Part shown: piece after piece, positions 18,398-54,310 of the stretch
Layout: every line of letters begins with the position of its first letter
How positions within the stretch are numbered: the stretch's first letter is position 1
Notes under the pieces: generated by a model
Seen by the model: the letters and a program-made list of their open reading frames with translations, nothing else
What the model was told of the DNA's origin: nothing
The model's database searches: none
Position numbers and translations under genes: made by a program
DNA from: Desulfobulbaceae bacterium
Lineage (GTDB): Bacteria; Desulfobacterota; Desulfobulbia; Desulfobulbales; Desulfurivibrionaceae
Reading direction: 5' to 3'
Length of the DNA stretch: 64,000 bases
NCBI GenBank assembly: GCA_004332195.1
Contig: SJBG01000001.1
Span: 62,001 to 126,000, forward strand

Positions 18398-20246
18398 GGG
18401 TAAGGGGGAGGTTTCCCCCCCCCTCCCCACACCACCTGGCATGCGGGTCCGCACCGGACGGTTCCTATGAGCTACCGCTTCGAAAGCGGGGTAATGAATC
18501 TTCACCCACAGATCTTTGACCGACAACAACCCCTGATCCTTCAGCCATTGGTTGGTCATCCCCGACTTTAGTAGCCGGCGTCTTGGCGAGTCGATACGGC
18601 CCCTTGCGGCTCAGGCCGATGGAGATGGCCTGAGCCGCAAGGTTGCAACCGAGTCTGGTCAGTTCACGGACTTTGGTGCGGCACCTGCGCCACCTTTTCA
18701 GGTAGCACATCCGCACCCTTCGGGGCAGCCGGTGGTCTATCTCCGGGAGTGGGCTGTAATACTCCGCAATCCCGAAATAGCCCATTAAAGCCTCGGAGGT
18801 ACTCCGCGAGCTTGGCAAACCGGTATGCCATTAAGACTCCCCAACTCCGCCCGGTCAGTTTCCTGACCCGCCGCTTGAACTCGGCAAAGGCCTTGTCCGA
18901 CCAGCGGATTTTGGCGCCCTTGAAGATGAACCCGAGAAAACCGCTCTCGTTGGTCGAGGCCACCTTGCTCTTCTCCTGGTTGACCGCAAGCTTGAGCTTG
19001 TGCTCAAGAAACCTTAGTGACGCTTGCCATCACCCGCTCACCAGCCCCGCCGACTCTTTACCAGGATGATAAAGTCATCGGCATAGCGGGCATTGCTACG
19101 GCCGCGTTTTTCCCGTTCCTTGTCAAGGTCGTCGAGCAGGATATTACTGAGCAAGGGTGACAGCGGACCGCCTTGAGGAACCCCTTTGCGGGTCTCCTGC
19201 CGGCGGCCGGCGATCATGACCCCGGCCCGCAGGTAACTGCCGATCAGTCGTAGAATTCGCCGGTCGCCAATTTTACGGCCGACCCGGTTCATCAGGACAT
19301 CATGATCCACGGTGTCGAAGAATTTCGACAGGTCGGCGTCAACGGCCACGCGGTATCCCTGACGGATAAAGTCGCGCACCCGAAAGACGGCGTTGTGGGC
19401 CGAACGTCCCGGCCGGAAACCAAAACTTAATTCCGAAAAGTCCGGGTTAAAGATCGGCAGCAGTACCTGGGCAATGGCCTGTTGGATCAGGCGGTCAAGC
19501 ACGGTGGGAATCCCCAGGGGGCGGGCGCCCCCGGTTGCTTTGGGAATCTCCACCCGCTTGACCGGCCATGGTTGGTAGGCGCCCGCCGGCAATGATGAAC
19601 GGATTTGCTCCCATTGTTCGCGGGCAAAGGCCGGGAAGTCGGTAATGGGCATGTTGTCCACCCCCGGCGCTCCCTTATTGGCTTTGACCCGGTCCCAGGC
19701 GCGGGTCATATTCGACCGGGAGAGAATCCGTTCCAGCAGGTGTTGATCGGGATCGGGTTTGTCGGCAACGCGCCGGAAAGTGCGCTCCCCCGGACGGGTT
19801 CGTGGCGCCGAGCGAGCTTGCCGGACCTTTTCCCTGCTCTGGGTTCGGCCCTTCGCTCCGTTGACCGGAACTACTATGATCTTGGCTGACTCCTGCCTGA
19901 TCATCCGGCATGTTGCCATGCAGGAACGCTGTCCAGCGTGAGCTGAACCGCACGTCGGGCAGGTCTCCCCGGATAAGAACGTGATCTGTCGCTACACCAC
20001 CGCGGCATTTACCCTACCTCCTGAACCCGGGGCTTCGTCATGTTGTGCTGACTTACCCGGAAGCTGGGCCTTGTATGCCATTTCTGTTCGTCGGCTCATA
20101 GCTTAGTGCTCCGGCTTCCTCCGGACGGTCCCTCACGGTTCCGCCCTTGCCTTCGGCTAGTATTTGTGGTTCTGTCTTCTCGACAGTACCAGGGTTCACA
20201 TACAGGGGGACTTGCACCCCAATCACGCCCATGCCGGGCGTACCAC
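18398..20246 (-). mobile_element. Group II intron (bacterial class C-like), inactive
   Basis: The minus-strand 5' end near 20246 reads GTGGTACGCCCGGCATGGGC followed by GGGGTGCAAGTCCCC, typical of a group II 5' domain I. The 3' end near 18398-18470 has a domain V-like stem (GAACCGTCCGGTGCGG) and a G/C-rich domain VI-like hairpin ending TTACCC. The encoded maturase is broken. The 5' exon ends in a strong hairpin (20256-20295), which fits the class C habit of inserting behind stem-loops. Exact ends need comparison with intact relatives. Confidence 0.75.
18480..19919 (-). pseudogene. ltrA: Group II intron reverse transcriptase/maturase, multiply frameshifted
   Basis: The N-terminal frame (19919 to 19038) holds RT blocks including KATGGARPLGIPTVLDRLIQ, FGFRPGRSAHNAV, ADLSKFFDTVDHD, GVPQGGPLSPLLSNI and the catalytic YADD. 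It shifts near 19045, again near 19010, near 18795 and near 18555. The thumb/X domain continues in pieces (GFLGFIFKGAKIRWSDKAF; YRLAKTPAT; WLKDQGLLSVKDLWVKIHY). No HNH endonuclease domain is visible, again like class C. With at least four shifts the protein cannot be made. Confidence 0.88.
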
Positions 20247-24226: not shown

Positions 24227-25059
24227 TTTTCAGTTGGTGATGGGTGGGTGATGGTGATAGTGATGGTGATAGGAAGTTGCTTTTCTTGGCCCTGGCAAAA
24301 AACGGGGCACCAAAGACAACCCCGCGCAATTTGCCCCGCAAAAGGGGGTGCTTTGCACCATTAACGGCTACCGGCCAGCGTGTCAACTAAAAAATCCAAC
24401 ACTAAAAAAATCCACCGCCAAAGCAACCTGATTTCGCCTGATTTCGGCAGATACCTGCATTTTGCGCCAGTGACCGGCAAAAAAACATGTACTACCCCAG
24501 CCGCCTGAATCCCCTCGCAAAAAACAGACCCAGGCTCTTGTCCCCCGCTACCCCGCAACAAACGGATCTTCATACTGCGACCAGCCATCGTCGAACGGTT
24601 CATATCGCTCATCCGGACTCAATCAACGTGTCATACGAGCACATTAAGGCCCATCTCCGTTTTGGGTTCGGTCCTTCGTCGTATGGTGACGACTACTACA
24701 GACCTCTGCTGACTTTTGCTCACTCATCAATGATGTTACCATCAGAGACGCTGCCGGGATCATCCGACAGCCCGCAGAGCAGATCTCCCCGGATAAGAAC
24801 GTGATCTGTCACTATGCAACCGCAGCATTTACCGTATCTCTTGAACCCAGGGCTTTGTCATGTGTGGCTGACTTACCCGGAAACTCGGCCTTGTATGCTG
24901 TTTCTGTTCGTCGGCGCATAGAGAGGATATTGCTCTCTAAAGCGATGGCCCGCGGTAAGTATTCTGTTCGATGAAGAGGAGGAGAAAGTTGGCTTGAGTG
25001 GGACATGACATTGCTCCCTTTAGAGTTGAACGGTAAAACCGGGTTTAAACGGGGTTTGC
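24227..25059. other. Intergenic region with intron remnant, no intact gene
   Basis: Contains a GATGGT/GATAGT microsatellite near 24240-24270, unassigned sequence at 24280-24640, and a degenerate group II intron fragment at about 24640-24920. No protein-coding gene is convincing. Confidence 0.6.
24640..24920 (-). mobile_element. Fragment of a second group II intron
   Basis: The segment GATCTCCCCGGATAAGAACG to TTCTGTTCGTCGGCGCATAG matches 19966-20100 of the first intron with scattered differences. The similarity continues at lower stringency into the start of the maturase region (GTAACATCATTGATGAGTGA). The 5' end of domain I and everything after about 24640 are missing. Confidence 0.7.
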
Positions 25060-48574: not shown

Positions 48575-50424
48575 CCAAAGGCTGAGAAAAATTTTTCTGC
48601 AAGCCAAATTGGCCATTGAATTTTTTATTTTTCACCCCTGCTGGCGATTATTTTTGGCTTGCAAATATATTTTTGCTTTTTAATCCCTTTTTGGGGCAGC
48701 ACTTTAAGTAAGGCAACAAGTCGTTTTCGCTAACATAGACAGAAAAATCAGTTGGTTATCTTGCGTGCTAAGCAACGTTGCAGTTTTTGGCACGCGTTGA
48801 GCGTATCAGGCCGCAGCAAATATATACTGTTGCTGCGCTGGCATATTGATAGGTTTCTTTTTCCTTGTACCGGCCATTTTTATTAGTAGTACAGCGATTG
48901 AACTCAACGTGCATCTGGCCATTGTTGCATGCTGGCTTCTTACTCGTAACGTTTCAAGACCGGTTTGATTTTTTAATAGGTTAAAAGGCCTTTCACAGTT
49001 TTTACGAATATCATGGGCCTTTGGTATCATTCCTGTTGCGTGGGGGATTCGTTGAAAAAGCCCGCGATCCATTGGCAAAAAACGACATTGTGGGCATGAG
49101 TGCAGGTGTAGGCGCTCACCCGGCAAGGCACCACACTTAAATTCGTGGTTCTGGTCTTCCGAGCCGACATGCCGCATGGAGATAGAGCATTCATCATGAC
49201 AAAAAACAGCGCCGGTATTTCCGTCGACATATTCAGGCAATGCCACTTTTGCAGAGGGAGGCGCTGTGACAATTGCACCGGTATCCCTGTATAGAGAACC
49301 ATCTTTATCGTGGTAAGCTTCGTCGGCAGTAATAAGCTTTACTTCAATCCCCATTGCCTGGGCAAGACGAACCAGGAATGGTAAAAAGTGGCTATCATGA
49401 TGATTAGCAGGAGCCAGAAGAGAGACGAGGGGGAAACTTTGGCCCGATTGAGCATCAATAGCCGTGAGAGTATGTAAACGATAGCCAATGACGAATTGAG
49501 ATTTATCCCGTTTATTGCGGCGTTTGCCGCAATCACAGTCAATGTCATTGTATATCCGTATTTTTTTGCCCTTGATCTCGACACTGGCTAAGGGAACTCT
49601 GCAATCGTTAGCAAGTTCTGTTGAATCAACTCCATGAAGGGCACAATCACCTAAAAGTCCTGATTGGTTGAAGTAATGAAGGATATACGCCAGTAAATTG
49701 ACCTGCTGCGTAAAAGAGAGGCTGGATCTGAACTTACTGAGCTGGCTATGATCAATAGTGGTATTTTTGTGTAACGGCAAACCAATGAATACACGGTTTT
49801 GTTTTCGATCCAGGCCAAGATACTCATCGGTGCAAAATTTACGGTAGCTTATCTCTGGATATTTTATTGCTTTGAGCAATTCGGCACGGAATAAGGTGGC
49901 CGGGAAAAGATCCCGTGTTGCTGGTCTAAAGCCTTCATATGATAGGATGCGATTGATTATCGTGTCATCGATTAATCTATCAACAAAAGCAAGTTTTTCA
50001 TCTTTGATATAGATAGGGGAACGTTTATAACTACTGAATTTTATGATTCTATTTTCGTTAATCATATCGATAAATCGAGCCATTTCATCAAGCTTGATGA
50101 TCCCCTTCGGAATTTGGCTTTCAATGCCAAGCAGTTCTTCCACTGGAGCCTCGACAACTTGTTTGAAATCGTGTTCAGCAACAGCTTCAGCCAGTACCGT
50201 GCGGGCAATGTCCTTCTTTTGCTTTTTTCGTAGACGATTCCAGTTGGGGAATTGTTTTTTTTAGTTGTTTCCGTATGGTTCGTTTGATATCTTTGTGGTG
50301 CATGAAGAGCCTCCGTTTTGATGTTACTTCTCGGCGAAATAATCAACACCATCATATATAGAGGCTTTTCTGTCTTAACTAAATGTTTTTATTCACAAAA
50401 ACATAACTTATTTCAACACCTTTT
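48553..50424 (-). mobile_element. Insertion sequence with IS1182/IS4-like DDE transposase, frameshifted
   Basis: Imperfect terminal repeats AAAAGGTGTTGAAATTA (48553-48569) and, reversed, AAAAGGTGTTGAAATAA (50424-50408) bound 1.87 kb with one minus-strand transposase. A further inverted GCAAGCCAAA/TTTGGCTTGC lies within the left flank. It separates mutM from the hydrogenase locus. Family placement is tentative. Confidence 0.7.
48806..50303 (-). pseudogene. DDE transposase with one frameshift in an A8 run
   Basis: A start ATG at 50303 gives MHHKDIKRTIRKQLKK, then an eight-A run (50262-50255) shifts the frame; with one A fewer, about 498 residues are open to 48806. The body has LHGVDSTELANDCRVP and ITADEAYHDKDGSLYRDTGA with DDE-type acidic residues and CERPFNLLKNQTGLE near the end, as in IS1182/IS5-like transposases. 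Slippage at the A run might still yield protein. Confidence 0.8.
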
Positions 50425-50463: not shown

Positions 50464-50985
50464 ATGCACAACGGCAAGGCCGAAAAAGTAGTGGTTTTCG
50501 GATGCGGCAACACGCTGCTTGGCGATGACGGATTTGGCCCGGCTGTCATCGCTGATTTGCAGTCCCTTGGTGATCCGCCAGAGCATGTTTTGCTGGAGGA
50601 TGTGGGGACCGGGGTCAGGGAATATCTTTTTGATTTTATTCTTGCTCCAGATATTGCCCCGAAACACTTGATCATTTTAGACGCTGTTGATTTTCAAGGA
50701 CGTAAGCCCGGAGAGGTTTTCGCCATAACTCCCGATACTATTCCGGCAAACAAAATTCACGATTTTTCTCTACATCAGTTTCCCACCGTTAATTTGCTGC
50801 GGGAACTTTCAGAGCATACCGGGATAGTCATTCATATTATTGCCGCTCAGGTTGAACATATTCCAGATAAAATAGCCCCGGGGCTTACTCCATCCATGAA
50901 AAACGCGGTCAAGGAGGCGAGTGCAAAGGTGAAAAAATTACTATCAAGCATCTGCCCGCAAATACGTGAGGTGACGGCACTATGA
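50464..50985 (+). CDS. Hydrogenase maturation protease
   Basis: 173 residues. The HyaD/HybD/FrcD signature VVFGCGNTLLGDDGFGPAVI and LIILDAVDF (metal-binding Asp) are clear. Such endopeptidases trim the C-terminal tail of the [NiFe] large subunit after nickel insertion, here the product of 52482-53930. GGGGGAA precedes the ATG. Its stop overlaps the next gene by 4 bp. The transposon end lies 40 bp upstream, so the original promoter may have been displaced. Confidence 0.93.
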   Translation: MHNGKAEKVVVFGCGNTLLGDDGFGPAVIADLQSLGDPPEHVLLEDVGTGVREYLFDFILAPDIAPKHLIILDAVDFQGRKPGEVFAITPDTIPANKIHDFSLHQFPTVNLLRELSEHTGIVIHIIAAQVEHIPDKIAPGLTPSMKNAVKEASAKVKKLLSSICPQIREVTAL

Positions 50986-51405
50986 TCTACGAGTTTAAAG
51001 TAAATGAGCTGGCTGAGGAGTTCGGGGTCCACCGAAATACTATTCGCAACTGGATTAAGAGTGGATCGGTCAAGGCTAAACCCGGGCCTGGTCGTCAATA
51101 TATCATGCAGTGGGCGGACTACCAGGCGTTTTGTGAAAAATTCGGGCGCAAACCGCGCATCAGTCCGAATCAGGATTTGGCGATGATCAGGGCCCGAGAA
51201 AAAAACTGCCGAGGTGGTTGTTCAACCTTTCGCCCTGGTTTCCTGCGAAAAAACCCTCTACGACGAGCCATCATGGGCGGATACCTGCCTGACCTGCGGG
51301 ACTTGTGCCTCGGCTTGTCCTATTGCCGGGGTGGACGATTTGGATCCGCGCAAAATCGTGCGGATGGCTTTTCTGGGTATGGAAGATGAGTTAGAGGGCG
51401 GCTGA
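50982..51405 (+). pseudogene. HTH-ferredoxin (HdrC-like) fusion with a frameshift
   Basis: Residues 1-70 form an excisionase/MerR-like helix-turn-helix (FKVNELAEEFGVHRNTIRNW). At a seven-A run (51199-51205) the frame shifts; with six A the frame continues as REKTAEVVVQPFALVSCEKT, then TCLTCGTCASACPIAGVDDL, a [4Fe-4S] site like the first cluster of HdrC. The second cluster and the rest of HdrC are missing; the frame ends at EDELEGG. The second part could also start independently at GTG 51214. Joined to the MvhD-like fragment by overlap. Confidence 0.7.
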
Positions 51406-51527
51406 TGATTTTCTGGTGTTCCTCGGCCGAGCCGGACAAGTTTGTCGAAGCTGTTACCAAAATGACAACTCTGACCAAAAGTATGGGACCAATTCTGGTA
51501 AATTCTGAAGCCCCACAGGTGGCATAG
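51405..51527 (+). pseudogene. C-terminal fragment of MvhD-like delta subunit
   Basis: 40 codons: FWCSSAEPDKFVEAVTKMTT and SMGPILVNS resemble the end of MvhD (YCSAAEG..F...V, LGP), the [2Fe-2S] subunit linking F420-non-reducing hydrogenase to heterodisulfide reductase. The N-terminal cysteines are gone. It starts one base inside the previous stop, suggesting that a deletion fused hdrC to mvhD and removed hdrA/hdrB-type genes between them. Confidence 0.55.
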
Positions 51528-51536
51528 GAGGCAATT

Positions 51537-52478
51537 ATGGGTGTAAGCGTAGCTGAAGAATGGCTGCATTCCTGTTCCGGTTGCGAAATTGCAATTCTCA
51601 ACATTGGTGAACCTCTCATCGAAATTTTGGGATTAATTGATTTTGTCCATATTCCCGTGCTGATGGATCATAAGTATTATGGGCAACTTGGCGACGGTAA
51701 AGAGCTGGAAATTCCTGAAGCCGTAGTGGGTATTGTCTCAGGCGGGGTTGCCAACGAAGAGCACCTGGAAGTGCTCGAGGTTATGCGGAAACAGTGCAAG
51801 GTGCTGATTGCCCTGGGAACCTGCGCCACCCATGGTGGAATTCCCGCGCTTGTGAACTCCTGGGGCCTAAAAGAAGGAATTAAGTGTTCTTATTCAACTC
51901 CGACCACTGATCCCTGCGAGATACCGACCAAGGTTGTTCCCAAACCCTTTGATCGAGTGTACGCACTCGATGAGAAGGTTGAAATTGATATGTTTATTCC
52001 CGGTTGCCCACCTAATTCTCAACTTATTGCCGAGGTGATCACAGCTTTGGTTGAAGGGAAAGACCCGGTTCTTCCTCGAAAAGCTGTCTGCTCCACCTGC
52101 CCGACCAGGCGGGAAGGCAAAGGCGGCGTAAAGCAGGTCAGGCGTTTTCGTTTTTTACAAAATGCCCAGTTTGACCATGAAAAGCCTATTGACGACATGC
52201 GTTGTCTCCTGGAACAGGGTCTTACGTGTATGGGACTGGTCACGGCCGCCGGATGCGCCAAACAAGGGGCGCCATCTTGTATCATCGCCAGGGTTCCCTG
52301 TAGCGGCTGTTTCGGGCCGGTGCGCAAAGATGGCAACCAGATGCTTGATATGATGAAAATCTTGGCCAGAAATGGAATTGATGATAAATCTGTGGTTGAT
52401 CGCTGCTCTTTACTACGCTTTTCCGGGGCACACGGCCTGCTCAGTCCGGTAGCGTCCCGGGTGGCAATGGAGGAATAA
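51537..52478 (+). CDS. Group 3 [NiFe] hydrogenase small subunit (MvhG/VhuG-like)
   Basis: 313 residues. The N-terminal CSGCEIAILN binds the proximal cluster, GTCATHGGIPA and FIPGCPPNSQLI follow, and the C-terminal half has further cysteines (STCPTRREGKGGVKQ; LTCMGLVTAAGCAKQGAPSC; VPCSGCFGPVRKDGNQ) for the medial and distal clusters. No signal peptide, so cytoplasmic. A strong GGAGG is 6 bases before ATG. Confidence 0.93.
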   Translation: MGVSVAEEWLHSCSGCEIAILNIGEPLIEILGLIDFVHIPVLMDHKYYGQLGDGKELEIPEAVVGIVSGGVANEEHLEVLEVMRKQCKVLIALGTCATHGGIPALVNSWGLKEGIKCSYSTPTTDPCEIPTKVVPKPFDRVYALDEKVEIDMFIPGCPPNSQLIAEVITALVEGKDPVLPRKAVCSTCPTRREGKGGVKQVRRFRFLQNAQFDHEKPIDDMRCLLEQGLTCMGLVTAAGCAKQGAPSCIIARVPCSGCFGPVRKDGNQMLDMMKILARNGIDDKSVVDRCSLLRFSGAHGLLSPVASRVAMEE

Positions 52479-52481
52479 ACC

Positions 52482-53930
52482 ATGACGAAAGTGATAAATA
52501 TCCAACCGGTAACCAGAATTGAAGGGCATGCCAGGATTGCCATTCATCTCGACGATGACGGCAATGTAAATGATGCCTTTCTGCATATCATGTCCCTCAG
52601 AGGGTTTGAAAAATTCATCGAAGGACGACCCGCTGAAGAAGTACCGCGTATTGTCAGTCAAATTTGCGGCATCTGTCCTTGGATGCACCATCTTTCTTCC
52701 ACCAAGGCAGTGGACGGATGCTTTGGGGTTACCCCCGCACCCACCGGTGATAAACTGCGAGAGCTGTGTCAGACTATGGCTCATATCAATGATAAGATCC
52801 TGCACTTTTTCTTTTTGGCGGCACCTGATTTTGTTCTTGGGCCGGATAGTGATTTTTCGGTTCGTAACGTCATCGGGCTGGTGAAAAAAGCCCCTGAGCT
52901 TGCGACCAAGGTCGTCAAGATGCGGCAACTGGGCCAGATGATGCTGGAGCGCTTTGCCGGCAAGGCAATTCACCCCATTGCCGGTGTGGTCGGTGGTTTT
53001 TCCAAACCCATGACCGAAGAAGAGCGTAAGGGGCTTTTGCAAGACACCAGAACCCTGCTTGATTTTGCCTTGTTTGCCATGGATTTTGCAAAAACCAAAG
53101 TCTTTCCCGAATATGAAGCAACCATGGCCACCCTCGGAGCCATCACCACCGGCTTTCTGGGTACTGTTGACAATTCAGGGGCCCTGAACTTGTATGATGG
53201 GCACCTTCGACTGATGAAAGCCAATGGCTCCATAACCGATTTCCCGGTCAATGAGTACGACCAGTACCTGGCGGAACATGTGGAAGATTGGACTTACGGC
53301 AAGCTAGCCTATGCCAAGTGCTGGGGTGAAGGTTTTTCTATGGATCTGAATGCCCCCAAAGGCATCTATCGCGCCAACACCCTTGCCCGTATTAATGTTG
53401 CTGACCGAATATCAACCCCGCAGGCGCATGGGGAGCTTGAGGAGTTTCGGGAGAAATTCGGGCGACCCGCGCAGGGGACCCTGCTTTATCATTGGGCCCG
53501 GCTGATTGAGCTGGTGTATGCTTGTGAACGGACCGTTGAGCTTCTGCTCCAGGATGATATTACGGATACCTTTGTCAGGGCCAAAGTGGAACCCAAAGCA
53601 GGGCGGGGCATTGGCGCAGTGGAAGCCCCGCGGGGAACCCTTATCAATGACTACACTACGGATGCAAACGGTTTAATTGTCAAGGCCAATATGATTATTG
53701 GGACAACTCATAATGTTGCCCCCATGAACATGAGTGTCAAGCAGGCAGCCACCACCCTGATAAAAAACGGGGTTTATGACGAAGGACTACTCAACAAAGT
53801 CGAAATGGCGGTGCGCGCCTATGACCCCTGAATGTCCTGCGCCACTCACCGCCTGGATGGCGGCATGCCCCTGACCATTACCCTGATAGACAGCTCCGGC
53901 AATATTTTGAGTACGCTCAACAATAAGTAG
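52482..53930 (+). CDS. Group 3 [NiFeSe] hydrogenase large subunit with selenocysteine
   Basis: 482 residues when the TGA at 53829-53831 is read as selenocysteine. The N-terminal QICGICPWMHH holds the first CxxC nickel ligands. The C-terminal motif is DPUMSCATH, exactly the DP(C/U)xxCxxH of the large subunit, and the frame then stays open to TAG at 53928-53930 with a conventional tail for protease processing. Read as a stop, the protein would lack two nickel ligands. The neighbouring hairpin is a SECIS candidate. Related to VhuA/VhuU of methanogens, where the Sec motif is on a separate subunit. Confidence 0.9.
53829..53868 (+). promoter_or_regulatory. Selenocysteine UGA and SECIS-like hairpin
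   Basis: Downstream of the TGA, CCGCC (53849-53853) and GGCGG (53859-53863) form a stem with loop TGGAT, 17 bases after the codon, in the range used by bacterial SECIS elements (G in the apical loop). Confidence 0.65.
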
Positions 53931-53941
53931 AGGTTTATATT

Positions 53942-54189
53942 ATGAGTGCAACAGGTAGCAAGGAAAGAAGACAGGTTAAGGCCGAGAATCCTAGTGGCGC
54001 CTGCGGATATGTCGGACATATGACGCCGATGAACTAAAAGCCAGGGCCGTTGGCGAAGAAGTGGACGGCACCTGCCCGGTTTGCGGCATGGTCCATCTGT
54101 CCGTTGATGAAATAACCGAATTGGAGCGACAGAAGGTTGTTGACTCTGACCGGTTTGAGATTATCAGAAAAGAGGCTGAAGCAAAATAA
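53942..54189 (+). pseudogene. Small zinc-ribbon-like protein with one frameshift
   Basis: The first frame (ATG 53942) stops after 31 codons. One missing base near 54002 restores a continuous product of about 82 residues with SGAC-RICRTYDADELKARA and TCPVCGMVHLSVDEITEL, two cysteine pairs typical of rubredoxin/zinc-ribbon domains. It follows the hydrogenase genes on the same strand and may have been cotranscribed with them. Function unknown. Confidence 0.5.
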
Positions 54190-54310
54190 AAGGCTATATC
54201 CGAGTTTTCCGCCATGTTGACCAGTCTTCGGGGAAAATTAGTTGTCATCTTTATGATAATCACCTAGAAAAAGTTCAATGATTTCAGAGCGGGAAAGGAG
54301 TGATGGCAAA

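Follow-up and report, generated by a model that had tools for sequence, protein, structure and literature searches.

A probable selenocysteine codon in an Mvh-type hydrogenase gene whose neighbouring electron-transfer genes are deleted

The window, the whole 64,000-nucleotide stretch of Desulfobulbaceae DNA analysed here, contains a hydrogenase gene with an in-frame TGA triplet. The locus raises the question of whether this TGA ends the protein or encodes a selenocysteine (Sec) of the nickel site, and of what becomes of such an enzyme when the genes next to it are damaged. In all likelihood the product of mvhA is the catalytic subunit of an Mvh/Vhu-type (group 3c) [NiFeSe] hydrogenase located in the cytoplasm, with Sec at UGA450. 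The present use of the enzyme is a more doubtful matter.

The mvhA reading frame and its product

The hydrogenase genes and the elements associated with them are the following.

52482-53930, + strand: mvhA, large (Ni-Fe) subunit of an Mvh/Vhu-type hydrogenase, 482 amino acids with TGA read as Sec
53829-53831, + strand: putative Sec codon TGA (U450), motif DP[U]MSCATH
53849-53863, + strand: putative apical hairpin of a bacterial SECIS, stem CCGCC/GGCGG, loop TGGAT containing G
51537-52478, + strand: mvhG, small Fe-S subunit, 313 amino acids, intact (VhuG match, PF01058)
50464-50985, + strand: hydrogenase maturation protease, HycI/FrhD type, 173 amino acids (TIGR00072, TIGR00130), found in the same place in relatives

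The mvhA frame starts with the ATG at 52482, has the TGA as codon 450 and ends with the TAG at 53928-53930. The original prediction had placed a TGA in a DP(U)xxCxxH motif followed by an open frame to a normal tail, and these coordinates are exact. On read-through the C-terminal end of the protein is VRAYDP[U]MSCATHRLDGGMPLTITLIDSSGNILSTLNNK. All ligand positions are retained when compared with the motifs CGxCxxxH and (C/U)xxCxxH, namely C62, C65, H69, U450, C453 and H456. A standard ORF call gives a protein of only 449 amino acids and loses U450 and C453, so that a plain annotation does truncate the enzyme and drop two nickel ligands, as anticipated. Reading the TGA as Sec puts back an active site that the annotation would otherwise lose. 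In mvhG and mvhA taken together (795 codons) the Sec codon is the sole break of the frame.

The Pfam match of MvhA is NiFeSe_Hases. Its nearest NCBIfam model is VhuA (454 bits over residues 5-428), with VhuU matching residues 433-458, both matches being under the curated cut-offs of these archaeal models. The closest solved structures are those of methyl-viologen-reducing / F420-non-reducing hydrogenase subunit A (9sw2, 5odc). MvhA/VhuA as the closest proteins and a small subunit of the MvhG type are the sequence features of the group 3c Mvh/Vhu enzymes, and the predicted assignment to group 3 agrees with them, including the solved MvhA chains (5odc).

The VhuA/VhuU proteins of the F420-non-reducing [NiFeSe] hydrogenase of Methanococcus have Sec at the same C-terminal CxxC position. 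Unlike them, the window has one chain instead of two, with a bacterial-type SECIS situated within the coding region. The periplasmic [NiFeSe] enzyme HysA (PDB 5jsu, 1cc1) is homologous to the window MvhA and presumably has its Sec in the Ni-ligand position corresponding to U450. However, HysA is an exported, respiratory enzyme of group 1, whereas the window enzyme is Mvh-like. The suggestion that Sec improves oxygen tolerance derives from other [NiFeSe] enzymes, not from group 3c-like ones, and might apply to MvhA by analogy.

The TGA codon and the downstream hairpin

Scanning species genomes of bacteria and archaea with two patterns gave 334 related loci, the best 80 of which were kept. Cultured carriers of the gene include Desulfogranum marinum DSM 2058 and Desulfofustis glycolicus DSM 9705. 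TGA is found at the position of codon 450 in 80 of these best 80 loci and Cys in none, in a set where truncated or tail-less relatives are under-represented because it was partly found via the conserved tail peptide (one of the two patterns, CATHRLDG, favours open-tail loci and is neutral between TGA and Cys). The ten residues past the TGA have a mean identity to the window of 96% in the 80 relatives, compared to 75% for residues 1-449. Across 395 genomes from the phylum, the homologues found with at least 60% identity nearly all carry the TGA. The homologue in genome G004 has Cys at the Sec position (YDPCLSCAT), and many more distant MvhA homologues have no in-frame stop there. The UGA is situated in frame at the Sec/Cys position of homologues, as in bacterial selenoproteins.

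Three MvhA homologues (loci L065, L066 and L067 in genomes G188, G136 and G038) are 54-60% identical to the window protein and lack the C-terminal nickel ligands. Where the Sec/Cys codon would be, they end with TAG or TAA or after a short extension. A search for a VhuU-like partner gene in the genomes with truncated MvhA gave nothing over the VhuU cut-off. TGA-bearing tails in G188 and G107, considered as a separate VhuU-like gene, were found to be the C-terminal parts of ordinary MvhA.

The hairpin CCGCC-TGGAT-GGCGG starts exactly 17 bases past the TGA. Its five stem pairs are kept in 99.7% of cells (77 distinct sequences), and 12 cells, at two of the pairs, show changes on both sides. Shuffling gave 1.6 such cells on average, none of 500 shuffles reached 12, and slid controls gave 0-3. 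Among the distinct sequences, pair 21-35 is C-G in 64, U-A in 9 and U-G in 3, and pair 23-33 is G-C in 74 and A-U in 3. As read from the alignment, the former ties a silent His codon change (CAC/CAT) to a Gly/Asp codon change and the latter ties an Arg/His change to a silent Gly change. Each covarying pair thus couples a silent change with an amino-acid change, showing that the pairing is not a by-product of the protein sequence alone. The apical loop is TGGAT or TGGAC in 81 of 81 sequences, in agreement with published features of bacterial SECIS elements, in which this loop is small and includes a G (PMC1088965). A stem-loop with a small, G-containing apical loop is therefore present downstream of the UGA, and its position, conservation and compensatory changes uphold the earlier proposal that it is the SECIS. 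Rfam at gathering thresholds gave no SECIS family match at the hairpin site, which is not counted against the SECIS. When the window sequence is folded by itself, the apical hairpin persists in a 48-nucleotide segment, over mixed lower stems, and a 71-nucleotide segment prefers another structure; because single-sequence folding is mixed, the claim is confined to the covarying apical hairpin.

All four genes of the Sec machinery, selA, selB, selC and selD, are present in the genome. Matches over the family cut-offs were found for selA at C13:4071 (618 bits), selB at C16:113443 (332 bits), selD at C15:58193 and the tRNA-Sec gene at C21:9941 (71.8 bits). The original prediction was to be abandoned if the genome had no such machinery, which is not the case. 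The selD gene (G000:C15:58193-59119, locus L040) has an in-frame TGA of its own. The hairpin would direct the ribosome at UGA450, via SelB and tRNA-Sec, to insert Sec, a decoding step that the evidence strongly supports.

It is highly improbable that the TGA is an ordinary stop leaving a truncated or split enzyme. The standard ORF call does end there, as does the MvhA of the few distant genomes described above. However, 80/80 relatives conserve the frame past the TGA, both the hairpin and the Sec machinery are present, and truncation would take away two Ni ligands. TGA450 very probably encodes selenocysteine, and sequence alone hardly permits more certainty.

The operon and its deletion

The surroundings of mvhG and mvhA differ from those in relatives at the following places.

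50982-51402, + strand: HTH + HdrD/GlpC-like remnant, reduced to its first 28% and frameshifted close to the A7 run around 51199
51389-51404, no strand: deletion junction; about 4.48 kb of the relatives missing (rest of HdrD, HdrA and most of MvhD)
51405-51527, + strand: mvhD remnant, last 40 residues (MIFWCSSAEPDKF...), equal to the last 29%
53942-54190, + strand: small zinc-ribbon-like gene (CGxxGHMT...CPVCG), conserved 3' of mvhA in relatives

The order in relatives is protease, HTH+HdrD/GlpC-like protein (Sec), HdrA (Sec), MvhD (Sec), MvhG, MvhA (Sec) and a small zinc-ribbon-like protein. The Sec sites of the first three selenoproteins are LLLPE[U]GHAYYATR in HdrD, NDCSM[U]IIAPKLVEC in HdrA and MVLG[U]HLGECHY in MvhD. 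In a blastn comparison with the relative L099, window positions 50494-51392 correspond to L099 548-1445 and the window from 51402 onward corresponds to L099 from 5925 onward. The arrangement seen in the assembly would result from a single deletion, some 4.5 kb long, that fused the N-terminus of HdrD with the C-terminal 40 residues of MvhD. The operon partners of a group 3c enzyme are consequently not found alongside, HdrA being absent and MvhD amounting to those 40 residues. The small zinc-ribbon-like gene has also lost one base, giving a frameshift near 54025; no Pfam family matches the unbroken copy in a relative. Among the loci with enough flank, two others are without HdrA and MvhD beside mvhG: L105 (genome G290), which keeps a short MvhD remnant, and L160, with another Hdr-like set lying farther upstream.

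Sec-containing forms of FrhA, HdrA and FrhD are known from archaea through the work of Zhang and co-workers, who also described a deltaproteobacterial operon of five genes that includes GlpC (PMC1794560). The relatives of the window have the same genes, in the same order and with four Sec proteins, as this glpC-hdrA-frhD-frhG-frhA operon of Syntrophobacter fumaroxidans and Desulfotalea psychrophila (PMC1794560). Compared to it, the window has lost three of the four selenoprotein genes to deletion or truncation, and the Sec codon of MvhA is the only one left in the operon. A cytoplasmic selenocysteine-containing MvhA2DG was reported in the genome paper of Desulfobacterium autotrophicum (PMC2702500). 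The MvhA2DG-HdrA1 of strain HRM2, a sulfate reducer with selA, selB, selC and selD in its genome, resembles the window enzyme as a cytoplasmic Sec Mvh hydrogenase (PMC2702500), but the HRM2 cluster includes HdrA1 and HysAB, whereas the window mvhA has no intact Hdr genes alongside. A 2026 review counts MvhA/VhuA/VhuU, with the motif UxxC, as an experimentally verified selenoprotein family and mentions the operon of four selenoprotein genes (PMC13188914). Since Sec-containing FrhA/MvhA and the four-selenoprotein operon of Deltaproteobacteria had been described in 2006-2009, the Sec call in the window appears correct and is of a known kind. As a selenoprotein, mvhA is one more member of a family known since 2006. 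The unusual part here is that the genes of the usual electron-transfer partners next door are deleted. The locus would offer an example from nature of a selenium hydrogenase core that has lost its bifurcation partners, with MvhAG either served by a partner encoded elsewhere or simply being lost.

A DDE transposase gene is situated just 5' of the hydrogenase protease gene (window 48806-50143, - strand). Two group II intron domain matches are found about 4.7 kb apart at window positions 19848-20142 and 24671-24922, also on the - strand.

MvhG and MvhA after the deletion

Family knowledge suggests that Sec, together with C62, C65 and C453, would bind the nickel, and that the neighbouring protease would then remove the tail after H456, a cut that is likely to occur. 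The hypD and hypE genes for assembly of the Ni-Fe site are present with open frames. MvhG would take the electrons onward. In relatives, electrons presumably pass via MvhD to HdrA, where flavin-based bifurcation would take place. The genome has just one other full-length HdrA match, at C12:161530; it shares 45% identity with the HdrA of a relative's operon and is followed by a Sec-type MvhD at C12:164748. The pair (G000:C12:161530-165116, locus L079), each member of which has an in-frame TGA, adjoins genes that were judged by eye to be CODH/ACS-like. If the hydrogenase still works, its likeliest acceptor might be this HdrA-MvhD pair acting in trans, a suggestion that is tentative, the identity to the lost HdrA being only 45%.

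Pairwise dS is saturated, and private changes were therefore counted among close relatives instead. The ratio of private amino-acid to synonymous changes is 32:44 in the window and 26:131 in three sister lineages (Fisher p = 4e-5), in a count that treats sites as independent and includes few sister lineages. In the MvhG+MvhA tree the end branch of the window is 0.19, compared to 0.054, 0.066 and 0.086 for the sisters. A smaller rise is seen in L105, likewise without the Hdr part (22:42, p = 0.02), and the ratio is raised too in L102 and L106, in which the operon is complete. Departures at conserved columns amount to three in MvhA (rank 4 of 81) and two in MvhG, which does not make the window an extreme outlier. 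Because L102 and L106 are raised and the conserved columns do not single out the window, the faster evolution is suggestive only. One MvhA change, R60Q, lies in the L1 motif RxCGxC next to two Ni ligands; Arg is found there in 80/80 relatives and Gln is unique among the 81 sequences. This change may affect MvhA function, but R60 is not a metal ligand, so that membership of the hydrogenase large subunits by homology stands.

With whole frames and retained ligands, yet a raised rate of change, MvhG and MvhA are either adapting to a new partner or weakening. It is possible, though rather unlikely, that a minimal Sec-containing MvhA-MvhG unit was kept after loss of HdrD-HdrA-MvhD, that it docks on some acceptor, be it the distant HdrA-MvhD pair of the CODH/ACS cluster or a different one, and that it evolves faster while adapting, with a similar loss in L105. 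Decay is another, likewise doubtful, account: the Sec gene would be present by descent, and after the deletion mvhG and mvhA would be mostly useless and gathering amino-acid changes. The 4.5 kb deletion with frameshifts in both flanking gene remnants is consistent with decay, as are the private changes, the long end branch, R60Q and the weaker rise in L105. However, the two long frames are unbroken, the Sec codon, the hairpin and all ligand residues are intact, synonymous changes still outnumber amino-acid changes, and the rise in L102 and L106 accompanies a complete operon. Decay concerns the functional part of the explanation, leaving the Sec reading unaffected. The deletion and the flanking frameshifts could also be assembly errors, the operon being complete in the living cell, but this is improbable. 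The operon structure is known from the assembly alone, and the frameshift near 51199 sits in a run of seven A. Against this, the junction is clean and lies between two coding remnants, the genome of 1.66 Mb, rated 100% complete, has no other copy of the missing HdrA, and protein evolution is faster on the window branch. Judged from their sequences, the chance that MvhG and MvhA are still in functional use is somewhat better than even.

A second Ni-Fe hydrogenase large subunit of 494 amino acids is encoded at C17:67181 (G000:C17:67064-68548; locus L081, 7065-8549), beside which no small subunit gene was recognised in the ORF list. A second MvhD gene is found at C16:64213.
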